Of a stretch of 64,000 bases of DNA, positions 31,102 to 35,441 are shown in pieces (position 1 is the stretch's first letter; each line of letters starts with the position of its first letter). The notes beneath the pieces are model-generated. The model did not search any database, was not told where the DNA came from, and saw nothing but the letters and a program-made list of their open reading frames with translations. The translations under genes and the position numbers were made by a program. Source of the DNA: Hymenobacter sp. YC55 (lineage in GTDB: Bacteria; Bacteroidota; Bacteroidia; Cytophagales; Hymenobacteraceae); assembly GCF_029433095.1 (NCBI RefSeq), contig NZ_JARNTX010000002.1, positions 744,001 through 808,000 of the forward strand, given 5' to 3'.

Positions 31102-32145
31102 TTACTTGGCCGCGGTGGCTTTCACCTTGGCCGGCGTGATTTTTTCGGCGAACTGCGTGTCAATCAGGTTGCTGACGGTTTGGTTGATGTCCACATTCTG
31201 GTCGATGGTGCCACTTTTCTTGAGCACGTCGCCGGCTGCGGAAATGGTGCTGCGCTGCTGCGGGCCAAAGGTGATGTTGGATAAGTCGGTGCGCTCTAGC
31301 TGCTTGGCCGCTACGGCTTCGTTTAGCTTCGCCTCAGTAGCTAGTGTCTTTTTTAGTTCTTCGGGGTGCTCAACAGCCCACTGACGAGCTTTTTCATAAC
31401 CAGCCAATACTTGGTCGACCAAGGCCGGATTCTGCTTGGCAAACTCTTCGCGCACATTCAGTACGCCGTAGCTATTGAAGTCGGCGTTGCGGTAAAACAG
31501 TCGGGCGCCCGATTCCAGTTCGGCTTTGGCCATGTGCGGATCTAGGCCAGCCCACGCATCGACGTCGCCTTTTTCGAGGGCGGCGCGGCCGTCGGGGTGT
31601 TGCAACGGAATTAGCTCGATGTCTTTCTCGCTCAGACCAGCTTGGTCGAGGGCGCGCAGCAAAAAGATGTAGGGGTCAGTGCCACGGGTAGCCGCCACGC
31701 GCTTGCCCTTCAGGTCGGCCACCGTTTTGATGGTGGATTTCGGACCAGTGCACAGCGCCGTCCACTCCGGCTTCGAGTAGATGTAAATAGATTTCAAAGG
31801 GTTGCCGTTGGCTTTGCCAATCAGGGCCGCGGCGCCAGCCGTAGAGCCGAAATCAATGCTGCTGCCATTTAGGAATTCCAAGGCCTTGTTGCTGCCCTGG
31901 CTGAGCACCCATTCCACCTTGATATTTTGCTTGGCTAAATCTTTCTCCAGCCAGCCCTGCTGCTTTAGCACCAAGCTCAGCGGATTGTAGTAGGCATAAT
32001 CCAGACGCACAACCTCTGGCTGCGTGCCTTTGGTAGCAGTGCCAGCCCCTCCACATCCGGCCAGCAGCAAAAGTGTCATCAGCAGGGCCCCCATAAAAGA
32101 GAACTGCCGGTCAGATATAGCTGGATGTGAAGTGGTTGAGTTCAT
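31102..32145 (-). CDS. Substrate-binding lipoprotein of sulfonate-type ABC importer
   Basis: 347 residues from MNSTTSHPAISD. Lipobox LLLAGC (Cys31) anchors it to the membrane. The SsuA/NMT1-type periplasmic binding fold is visible: RLDYAYYNPLSLVLKQQGWLEKDL, FLNGSSIDFGSTAGAAALIGKANG, TVADLKGKRVAATRGTDPYIFLLRALDQAGL, and DAWAGLDPHMAKAE. It captures aliphatic sulfonates or a similar small anion in family members. The exact ligand is not known here. The longer frame (to 32262) would overlap metX, and the chosen ATG is 55 bp after metX. Encoded within the methionine operon. Confidence 0.93.
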   Translation of the reverse strand: MNSTTSHPAISDRQFSFMGALLMTLLLLAGCGGAGTATKGTQPEVVRLDYAYYNPLSLVLKQQGWLEKDLAKQNIKVEWVLSQGSNKALEFLNGSSIDFGSTAGAAALIGKANGNPLKSIYIYSKPEWTALCTGPKSTIKTVADLKGKRVAATRGTDPYIFLLRALDQAGLSEKDIELIPLQHPDGRAALEKGDVDAWAGLDPHMAKAELESGARLFYRNADFNSYGVLNVREEFAKQNPALVDQVLAGYEKARQWAVEHPEELKKTLATEAKLNEAVAAKQLERTDLSNITFGPQQRSTISAAGDVLKKSGTIDQNVDINQTVSNLIDTQFAEKITPAKVKATAAK

Positions 32146-32200: not shown

Positions 32201-33232
32201 TTAATGAGCGAAAACCTGGGCGTGAAAGCGTTCCAGGAAGTGCGTGATGTGTGCTGTTTCAATCAGAAAGCCGTCGTGGCCGAAGCGGGAATCCATTTCG
32301 GCATACATGGCGCCCGGAATGTGGCGAGCCAACAGTTGCTGCTCGGTCGGCGGAAACAGCACATCGGAGGTGATACCTATTATAAGGGTCCGCGCCTGCA
32401 CCCGCCGCAAAGCCGCCGCTACGCCCCCGCGTCCGCGGCCAACGTTGTGCGAGTCCATGGCTCTTGATAGCGCCACGTACGTGTGCGCGTTGAAGCGGGC
32501 CACCAGCTTGTCGCCCTGATATTGTTGATAAGCGCTGGCTCGGAAATCGTCTATCTTTTCGTCGGTAGCTTCTGCCTGGGTTTCGCTGTAAGCTCCGTAG
32601 CTGCGGTAGCTCAGCAGCGCCACGGCCCGGGCGGCCCGCAAACCGGCTGCGCCACCTTCAGGCGTTGCTTGGTGGTAAGTGGAATCGGCGAAAATGGCTA
32701 GTCGTTGCGCTTCGTTGAAGGCAATGCCCCACGGCGAATGTTGGGCATTGGTAGCCAACAAGATCAGGTTTTCAAACACAGTTGGCTGCTGAACAGCCCA
32801 TTCCAACGCCTGTTGGCCGCCCAGAGAGCCGCCAATCAGCGTGTGAATCTGCGTTAACCCGAGGTGCTGGCGTAGCGCTTCATGCGCCGCCACTAGGTCA
32901 CGGATGGTAAGCAAAGGAAACTGCTGATACCGCGGAGCGCCCGTTTCCGGGGCCGGCGAAAGCGGATTGGTAGAGCCATAGCAAGAGCCCAGCACATTGG
33001 CGCATACTATAAACCAGTCAGCCGGATCGAAGTAGCAGTCTGACCCAAACAGGCCCGGCCACCAACCAAGCACATCGGCGTTGGCGGTGAGGGCATGGCA
33101 CACCCACACTACGTTGTCGGCGGCGGCATTCAGGGTGCCAAAGGTGCTGTAAGCCACTTCCACACCAGTAAGCACCTCGCCGCTTTCCAGGGCTAAAGGT
33201 TTGGGTAGCAAGAAGCTTTGATTCTCAGGCAT
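32201..33232 (-). CDS. metX: Homoserine O-acetyltransferase
   Basis: 343 residues. Transfers acetyl from acetyl-CoA to homoserine, the first committed step of methionine synthesis by direct sulfhydrylation. Alpha/beta-hydrolase fold: VCHALTANADVLGWWPGLFG, NVLGSCYGSTNPLSP, the nucleophile serine in LIGGSLGGQQALEWA (about residue 135), the aspartate in GITSDVLFPPTEQ and the histidine in SRFGHDGFLIE. START: the longer frame adds 20 residues, but MPENQSFLLP fits the family. Follows metY with a 276-bp gap holding hairpins but no promoter box that I can see. A succinyl-transferase activity cannot be excluded from sequence alone. Confidence 0.95.
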   Translation of the reverse strand: MPENQSFLLPKPLALESGEVLTGVEVAYSTFGTLNAAADNVVWVCHALTANADVLGWWPGLFGSDCYFDPADWFIVCANVLGSCYGSTNPLSPAPETGAPRYQQFPLLTIRDLVAAHEALRQHLGLTQIHTLIGGSLGGQQALEWAVQQPTVFENLILLATNAQHSPWGIAFNEAQRLAIFADSTYHQATPEGGAAGLRAARAVALLSYRSYGAYSETQAEATDEKIDDFRASAYQQYQGDKLVARFNAHTYVALSRAMDSHNVGRGRGGVAAALRRVQARTLIIGITSDVLFPPTEQQLLARHIPGAMYAEMDSRFGHDGFLIETAHITHFLERFHAQVFAH

Positions 33233-33508: not shown

Positions 33509-34906
<1,398 letters not shown>

Positions 34907-35027: not shown

Positions 35028-35114
35028 AACTCAACGCCGGAGCCTAGGGCGTAGCGATGCTGGTTAAGAAGGCAATAAAAAGGGGAGGGGGAAGTGTGCC
35101 GGAGCCGTCAGGGG

Positions 35115-35273
35115 CTAACAACACCAACAACAGGCGCTACAACAGCAGCGCATTCGCATTCGAGTGGCCGGAGCAACCACAGGCGACAAGCGAAAACCCA
35201 TCGGCAAACCAGTGCGCAGCGAAGCGACTAGAGCGGACAGGAGAAGTAAAGCGGAATTTAGGCTATTTTTCAT
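35115..35273 (-). CDS. Poly-cysteine leader peptide (52 aa) in the metY leader
   Basis: ATG 35273-35271 to TAG 35117-35115. The peptide starts MKNSLNSALLLLSALVAS and ends MRMRCCCSACCWCC, so seven of the last ten residues are Cys and one is Trp, directly before the stop. The ATG is 8 nt after the last base of the SAM-I riboswitch on the same strand, and metY starts 211 nt after the stop. Too short for ordinary ORF finding. The layout is that of a ribosome-stalling leader peptide sensing charged tRNA-Cys. Bacterial poly-Cys leader ORFs with cysteine-dependent attenuation are known in mycobacteria. Downstream is a C-rich, G-poor tract that could be a Rho-loading site. Translation of the frame is unproven. 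A chance product of a TGT/TGG-rich stretch is the alternative. Confidence 0.65.
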   Translation of the reverse strand: MKNSLNSALLLLSALVASLRTGLPMGFRLSPVVAPATRMRMRCCCSACCWCC

Positions 35274-35280
35274 GGTACTC

Positions 35281-35394
35281 AACTTATCTCTCCCGCCGAT
35301 GAATGTCGGAGCGGGCAGGAATTGGCACCTTTCGTGTCAACGAAGGTTGCCAGTGGGTCACGGAGCCTGTTCTCTCGCCACTTCTGTATAAATC
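35281..35394 (-). promoter_or_regulatory. SAM-I (S-box) riboswitch
   Basis: On the minus strand the conserved S-box core is present in order. P1 5' side is ATTTAT (35393-35388), then GTGGCGAGAG and CTGGCAACC (end of P2 and kink-turn/pseudoknot region). GAAAGGTGCCAATTCC forms P3 and the SAM-binding core, a P4 stem is formed by GCCCGC / GGCGGG, and the closing GAGAGATAAG gives the 3' side of P1. Length about 114 nt, as in the family. S-adenosylmethionine binding normally lowers expression of downstream methionine genes, here metY-metX-ABC transporter-hom. No terminator stem follows P1 directly. The Cys-rich reading frame starts instead, so control may act on its translation. Confidence 0.93.
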
Positions 35395-35441
35395 TGTAAA
35401 AACTGTCCCACCGTAAGCGGGGAGTACCGTGCTAGGTGTTG

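Follow-up and report, generated by a model that had tools for sequence, protein, structure and literature searches.

As Canestrari reportedly described in 2020, polycysteine short open reading frames (ORFs) act in mycobacteria as cysteine-responsive attenuators, leaderless ones according to the title of that work. Cys-run leader peptides before cys operons of Mycobacterium and Propionibacterium acnes, and before cbs of Bifidobacterium longum, are named in a 2005 study of Actinobacteria, an excerpt of which suggests a role for Rho together with polyY motifs, calls this prediction weak and draws a parallel to tna (PMC1262725). Ribosome occupancy of a polycysteine short ORF in M. smegmatis is mentioned in the excerpt of a further paper (PMC4633059). 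The leader analyzed here resembles the actinobacterial ones in that a short ORF carries a Cys run near its stop codon and lies upstream of sulfur genes, and in that no terminator hairpin was found. It differs from them in that a SAM riboswitch precedes the ORF, that Met codons are enriched as well, and that it belongs to a different phylum.

Upstream ORFs (uORFs) controlled by riboswitches are described in Mycobacterium tuberculosis for Mbox/pe20 (PMC12810186) and B12/ppe2 (PMC11260477), where, according to the abstracts, the aptamer acts on the translation of a short ORF that precedes the main gene, and where Rho-dependent termination is reported in the Mbox/pe20 case; the ligands differ from that of our leader, and no amino-acid codon run is mentioned in these abstracts. 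The uORFC-8-2 motif before cysS of Rhodobacterales also contains a uORF with consecutive Cys codons, but these number two, as a rule at positions 14 and 15, and are combined with an intrinsic terminator, and the excerpt of that source does not mention a riboswitch (PMC8632094). Within the same phylum, operons of amino-acid biosynthesis in Flavobacterium psychrophilum have been suggested to be attenuated by leader peptides upstream, an idea akin to ours, although the excerpt names neither Cys codons nor a SAM riboswitch (PMC9723704). The SAM-I (S-box) riboswitch, RF00162, is itself known in Bacteroidetes/Chlorobi, as stated in the excerpt of PMC2211319.

We found no report of a Cys-codon ORF behind a SAM riboswitch in the literature searched, which consisted largely of titles and the beginnings of abstracts. 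The first-pass annotation of this locus had considered the combination new in Bacteroidota and the mycobacterial poly-Cys leader ORFs its closest parallel; the former statement is in line with our search, and the latter systems, with their short ORF and Cys run near the stop codon, are indeed among the nearest known. From its sequence and that of its relatives, the locus is a real and conserved compound leader joining these two known kinds, whose function we predict from comparison.

Anatomy of the metY leader

The minus strand of the window, by which we mean the whole stretch of 64,000 nucleotides analyzed, carries in this order a SAM-I aptamer, a 52-codon ORF, a 211-nt gap, metY, a metX-like gene and a gene for an SsuA-family protein (Table 1). 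The aptamer scores above the RF00162 gathering score of 44.4 bits, which supports its membership in the SAM-I family, and its expression platform would here be the start codon of the uORF, the first base of which follows the end of the aptamer at a distance of 8 nt. The uORF encodes the peptide MKNSLNSALLLLSALVASLRTGLPMGFRLSPVVAPATRMRMRCCCSACCWCC and finishes with CCCSACCWCC, i.e., with seven Cys in the last ten codons, before the gap to the metY ATG (34903). Frame, spacing on both sides and C-terminal end had been described in the same way by the first-pass annotation, and our coordinates and the Rfam score agree with it. Its view that riboswitch and uORF stand in series holds as far as both are present, but the aptamer is not merely upstream; it ends at the uORF start codon.

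Table 1. Features of the leader and the downstream genes in the window
Feature	Position	Strand	Evidence
SAM-I riboswitch aptamer (RF00162)	35281..35394	-	Rfam cmscan 72.4 bits, E 5.2e-15; P1 3' strand of GATAA type
Leader ORF (uORF), 52 codons	35115..35273	-	ATG 35273 to TAG 35115
Sulfur-amino-acid codon tract RMRMRCCCSACCWCC, 2 Met and 7 Cys, at the uORF end	35118..35162	-	Conserved Cys columns; in-frame Met enrichment
Predicted hairpin spanning the stop codon, with the final Cys/Trp codons before it and the bases after it	35095..35132	-	RNA fold -16.2 kcal/mol
G-free C/U-rich tract 3' of the hairpin, candidate Rho-loading site	35074..35094	-	Sequence
metY, O-acetylhomoserine sulfhydrylase	33509..34903	-	TIGR01326 686 bits, cut-off 495.1
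metX-like homoserine O-acetyltransferase, ATG start	32201..33232	-	TIGR01392 352.1 bits, under cut-off 500
SsuA-family sulfonate-binding protein, ATG start	31102..32145	-	TIGR01728 268.7 bits, cut-off 163.5

A Cys run of this kind had also been judged improbable by chance. Cys makes up only 0.72% of the 17,145 residues in 40 long ORFs of the window, and against this background the binomial chance of seven Cys in ten codons is 1e-13. The figure overstates the case, because the genome contains four TGY codons followed by TRR at 25 places, compared with a single one for the pattern in reverse, used as control; tails of four Cys codons and a stop make up 11 of the 25. We therefore regard conservation, and not the single sequence of the window, as the convincing evidence for the predicted uORF.

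Conservation of the frame, its start position and its codons

The comparison of related leaders that the first-pass annotation had proposed bears out its reading. The genus metY set comprises the loci of the 30 top MetY matches in 61 genomes. In 29 of them, metY is preceded by a short in-frame ORF that is rich in Cys at its end and begins at a preserved position; the thirtieth metY (L226) follows directly behind another open frame and has no such leader. An Rfam SAM aptamer is present in all 20 of these loci that were scanned (L201-L220). The P1 types of the genus set include GATAA and TATAA and a few TATGA. The length of the uORF varies from 48 to 59 codons while frame and tail stay. As point estimates, pN/pS is 0.24 in eight Cys columns versus 0.66 in the whole frame, and the Cys columns use both TGT and TGC. 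Frame and Cys codons thus appear to be kept by selection, as in a Cys-run leader attenuator. Gap lengths were considered as additional coding evidence and set aside, as they are not mainly multiples of three and the alignment is too noisy.

For the wider survey, a polyCys uORF was defined as an ORF of fewer than 90 codons with at least three Cys in its last 14 codons, two of these adjacent, and uORF classes were based on an ATG or GTG start 3-20 nt after the aptamer. Such uORFs follow 50 of 199 SAM aptamers, which are mostly best-scoring matches at several levels of relatedness, not a random sample, and include relatives that are not independent. They occur in 12 family-level groups (f1, f2, f4, f5, f9, f14, f15, f18, f19, f22, f23 and f27). 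One locus at a contig edge (L064) is left out of all counts, a ninth riboswitch of the window's own genome lies outside the 199, and L121-L200 are a selection from the best-scoring matches listed. The window locus itself appears twice, as L006 in the set of 50 and as L201 in the set of 29. PolyCys uORFs were found in 22/61 leaders of the window's genus and family (L001-L061), in 25/68 of other families of the order (L062-L090, L161-L200) and in 3/39 elsewhere in the class (L110, L111, L121-L157); outside the class (the rest of L091-L120, L158-L160), where the leaders are mostly of one family (f35), there were none in 31. Across lineages the uORFs range from 23 to 59 codons and contain up to eight consecutive Cys, e.g., MHTTHTTTFSQKSNFFLQLLSQSIQTDCCCCCCCC (L070), while the peptide bodies differ by eye.

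The type of the P1 3' strand separates these leaders: polyCys uORFs follow 45 of 68 TATAA-type aptamers versus 4/85 of the GATAA type, 0/41 of the GATGA type and 1/5 of the rest. The Fisher value of 9e-17 for TATAA versus GATAA is only a guide, because the sequences are related. The polyCys uORF hence accompanies an A-U-rich P1 helix, to which the window aptamer, one of the four GATAA cases, is an exception. Upon 100 shuffles of the 68 TATAA-type leaders with the first 24 nt kept, the 45 observed uORFs compare with a mean of 0.67 and a maximum of 3, and together with the conservation this rules out a chance origin of the frame. In the 50 uORFs, 283 Cys codons are in frame versus 84 and 72 out of frame, an excess that is partly expected because the set was chosen by Cys content. 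Another frame is open across the whole uORF in 25 of the 50, so openness of a frame alone is no proof. As judged from the sequences compared, a conserved short ORF with Cys codons near its stop recurs upstream of sulfur genes.

A pattern scan of named genomes, in which the SAM core motif was represented by a short regular expression, gave at least 119 loci, with some records repeated. An in-frame ORF is present in 75 of the 119 pattern matches listed, and 71 of these also have the SAM core motif. By subset, 49 of 80 named matches have the ORF in frame, 46 of them with an upstream SAM motif, while 30 have neither and one (Aliarcobacter) has the motif alone; a further 39 matches include 26 with the ORF, 25 of them with the motif. 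ORF and motif co-occur, among the matches listed, in Pontibacter, Mucilaginibacter, Rufibacter, Adhaeribacter, Fulvivirga, Cesiribacter, Nafulsella and Thermoflexibacter, and in Taibaiella the ORF is present with the SAM motif unmatched. The ORF is missing from 31 named loci, which are spread over Clostridia, Nocardia, Proteus and others, including some Bacteroidota.

Two features go beyond the earlier reading, namely the absence of an excess of intrinsic terminators after the uORF, discussed below, and an enrichment of Met codons. Codons -5 to -16 of the 50 uORFs contain 59 in-frame ATG per 600 versus 7 and 6 in the other frames, while codons -17 to -28 (540 codons) contain 2, 5 and 0 in the three frames. 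The named set agrees, with 39/588 versus 2/588. This suggests that the charging of tRNA with Met would be read as well as that with Cys; alternatively, the enriched ATG codons could be internal in-frame starts.

The gap between aptamer and start codon is 7-10 nt in 44 of the 50 polyCys uORFs and exactly 9 nt in 27, and by eye the P1 pairing extends beyond the Rfam boundary and stops about 5-6 nt short of the start codon. As the riboswitch ends at the uORF start codon, translation of the uORF is probably gated. In two leaders metX itself starts at this position (L196, +9; L154, +11), and in L153 a decarboxylase gene starts at +9 after the same kind of aptamer. We take this placement as the strongest indication from sequence that initiation at that start codon is under the control of the aptamer. 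The layout, with an aptamer helix beside the start codon that it would control, is that of a translational riboswitch. Two further arrangements were seen at this position. In L182, the stop of a short ORF without Cys tail overlaps the start of a MetX-like frame, which suggests direct translational coupling, and nine TATAA-type leaders before metY (L073, L075, L078, L086, L129, L167, L173, L184 and L187) contain ORFs at the same distance without a Cys tail that possibly read other signals.

Genes behind the leaders

Genes downstream of the surveyed aptamers were labelled by BLAST to one seed each, with seeds or representatives checked. PolyCys uORFs precede CysH (6/6), a permease (3/3), a protein without Pfam match (2/2), MetY (29/68), MetX (1/21), TonB-receptor-like genes (1/4) and the remaining genes (8/15), and they were absent before MetH (0/43), CGS/CGL-type genes (0/24), homoserine dehydrogenase (0/7) and cysteine-synthase-like genes (0/6). 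The interpretation of the first-pass annotation as a poly-Cys leader of sulfur genes is thereby supported and extended, since the layout recurs upstream of other sulfur genes. Still, 39 of the 68 MetY leaders have no polyCys uORF; nine of the MetY leaders are of the TATAA type with a short ORF free of a Cys tail. If every Cys-making gene had the sensor, polyCys uORFs would be expected before the six cysteine-synthase-like genes too, and their lack there speaks against such a rule; in four of these six leaders, a frame of 24 or 25 codons at +5 contains three or four Cys that are not terminal. Cysteine-synthase-like genes behind GATAA-type SAM riboswitches form a cluster (L021 with L001, L010, L014, L015 and L017), and in L021 the family match starts only at about residue 88. 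Single polyCys leaders precede a sulfite-reductase-domain protein (L193) and, by sequence only, a ferredoxin-like frame (L198). A protein of ~340 amino acids stands behind SAM/Cys-uORF leaders in L352 (608-1681) and L036 and has no Pfam match; in L352 it is also without NCBIfam match at E 1e-40 and is followed by a gene for a luciferase-like monooxygenase.

The window's own genome has nine SAM riboswitches. Five of them (L002, L003, L004, L006 and L008) are followed by a strict polyCys uORF, two further leaders, L007 and the ninth, VSTFTSFAVPSVTRAALQHGCCGFTRLSVCMQMMSMSC, have Cys codons spread through the uORF, and in L001 and L005 the only frames are nine residues long and free of Cys. L003 leads a sulfate-reduction island that encodes two PAPS-reductase-domain proteins (one of CysH type, one by our reading of CysD type), a translation-GTPase-domain protein (CysN type by our reading), a tetrapyrrole methylase, a flavodoxin-type reductase, a TonB receptor, a sulfite-reductase-domain protein and a siroheme-synthase/TauE protein. 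L008 opposes L003 across the island and lies before an amino-acid permease, identified by clustering with L050.

Seen as one region (L350; contig C1, 1632400-1647900), the island for sulfate assimilation lies between two facing SAM-riboswitch/Cys-uORF leaders, one for the permease and one for cysH, and opposed riboswitch pairs about 15-17 kb apart are also apparent from the coordinates in three other genomes (G009, G023 and G018). In addition, SAM riboswitches with a uORF of scattered Cys and Met codons precede TonB-receptor-like genes, labelled by clustering or sequence, at two places in the window's genome (L351 and L353, on contigs C2 and C12), which suggests that these leaders serve the uptake of a sulfur compound.

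Termination signals and possible modes of regulation

Terminator-like sites occur in the first 160 nt of uORF-free leaders of the GATAA type (42/81 versus 5.75 in shuffles) and the GATGA type (8/41 versus 2.25), and in 5 of 49 polyCys leaders (the fiftieth, of another P1 type, was left out), as scored with a crude detector. As terminators are thus a feature of GATAA leaders and not of polyCys leaders, we read the uORF as replacing the terminator as expression platform. Between the uORF end and the gene, a different stretch from that scored in the GATAA and GATGA leaders, polyCys leaders show no excess of terminator-like sites (9/50 versus 5.5 and 8/29 versus 8.1 in shuffles), and the pattern scan of the window found no minus-strand site between the uORF stop and metY. 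A classical attenuator with an intrinsic terminator was rejected on these grounds.

Other elements surround the stop codon. In the genus metY set, an anchored stem search places the stop codon in a short hairpin (mean score 6.77 versus 2.52 in shuffles), the pairs of which vary with pairing kept (TAGCC/GGCTA, CTAAGCTG/CAGCTTAG and AACCGC/GCGGTT). Outside this set the hairpin is hardly above chance (3.76 versus 3.29, z 1.6), that of the window does not stand out in stability (z -1.03, with 31 of 200 shuffles folding as stably), and RNAalifold found no consensus structure in a MAFFT alignment of the stop region. At +20 to +40 nt after the stop, leaders of the genus metY set have a C content of 0.51 and a G content of 0.07, and only in this set is the C-rich tract sharp. 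Because terminators are not in excess, a C-rich tract is present and the window's own genome encodes Rho, we favour Rho-dependent termination as the putative last step.

SAM gating, stalling, the sign of control and the Rho step are what we infer from this arrangement; the anatomy, the frame and its start position, the conserved Cys and Met codons and the association with sulfur genes are seen in the compared leaders themselves. The reading that we lean towards is a compound sulfur-sensing leader in which SAM would gate ribosome entry and stalling at Cys codons would then set read-through, probably via Rho. Briefly, with SAM plentiful, the P1 helix, which ends a few bases before the uORF start codon, would block ribosome entry; with SAM low, P1 would open and the uORF would be translated. 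The ribosome would then meet the Met and next the Cys codons that end at the stop codon. If charged tRNA-Cys, and perhaps tRNA-Met, is plentiful, it would finish and leave, and the freed stop hairpin and C-rich tract would lead to an early stop of transcription, most likely through Rho. Under a shortage of Cys, the ribosome would instead stall on the tract and cover these elements, including the 5' arm of the stop hairpin when halted on the Cys codons, and the operon (metY-metX, others) would be expressed. More tentatively, the leader may be a three-input integrator on one RNA, widespread in Bacteroidota, that reads SAM, Met-tRNA and Cys-tRNA and turns the genes for sulfur assimilation on only when these end products are short. 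If true, a riboswitch and a codon-reading leader peptide would be joined in a fixed order, with one controlling access to the other, which would help explain how many Bacteroidota set their sulfur assimilation; such short ORFs easily escape annotation.

A stalled ribosome could instead act on translation, by refolding the leader and freeing the main start or by coupling, with transcription unaffected. The Cys/stop region pairs with downstream sequence above shuffles, strongly in the genus set, with z of the mean between -4.0 and -6.7, and weakly in other leaders, between -1.7 and -3.7, while a control stretch of the uORF gave +1.6 and -1.6 (the latter outside the genus set), and the lack of an excess of intrinsic terminators fits this reading as well. 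It would gain further support from the report that Bacteroidia ribosomes fail to recognise Shine-Dalgarno sequences, as stated in the excerpt of PMC9976891, as initiation would then likely be sensitive to structure. However, the gene mostly lies more than 90 nt from the uORF stop, at a variable distance (92-402 nt, and 45-695 nt in the named set, where the gene is the first ORF of at least 110 codons), which argues against simple translational coupling, and the C-rich, G-poor tract after the stop in the genus metY set is a further point against translational attenuation, so that we consider it unlikely, though well worth weighing.

That the uORF does no more than load ribosomes for a translational SAM switch, with Cys and Met codons that are slow or neutral and sense nothing, would agree with the Cys-tail-free short ORFs found at the same position before metY in other lineages and with the main gene itself standing there in L196, L154 and L153. 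We hold this to be improbable, as the Cys tail recurs on differing peptide bodies in 12 family-level groups, exceeds shuffles and follows gene function (40/79 versus 0/80). The same divergence of bodies and lengths between lineages, with only the start position and the Cys tail shared, makes it very hard to believe that a Cys-rich peptide, secreted or binding metal, is the functional product of the uORF. The window peptide is hydrophobic towards its N-terminus (MKNSLNSALLLLSALVA), as such a product might be, but it has no NCBIfam or Pfam match at E up to 1.

The pattern scan also marked two terminator-like stems elsewhere in the window. One of them lies before the aptamer (35421..35407), and the other, GCGCTGCTGTTGTAGCGC, lies on the minus strand inside the Cys tract (35151..35134), has a poor tail and could be part of an alternative pairing.
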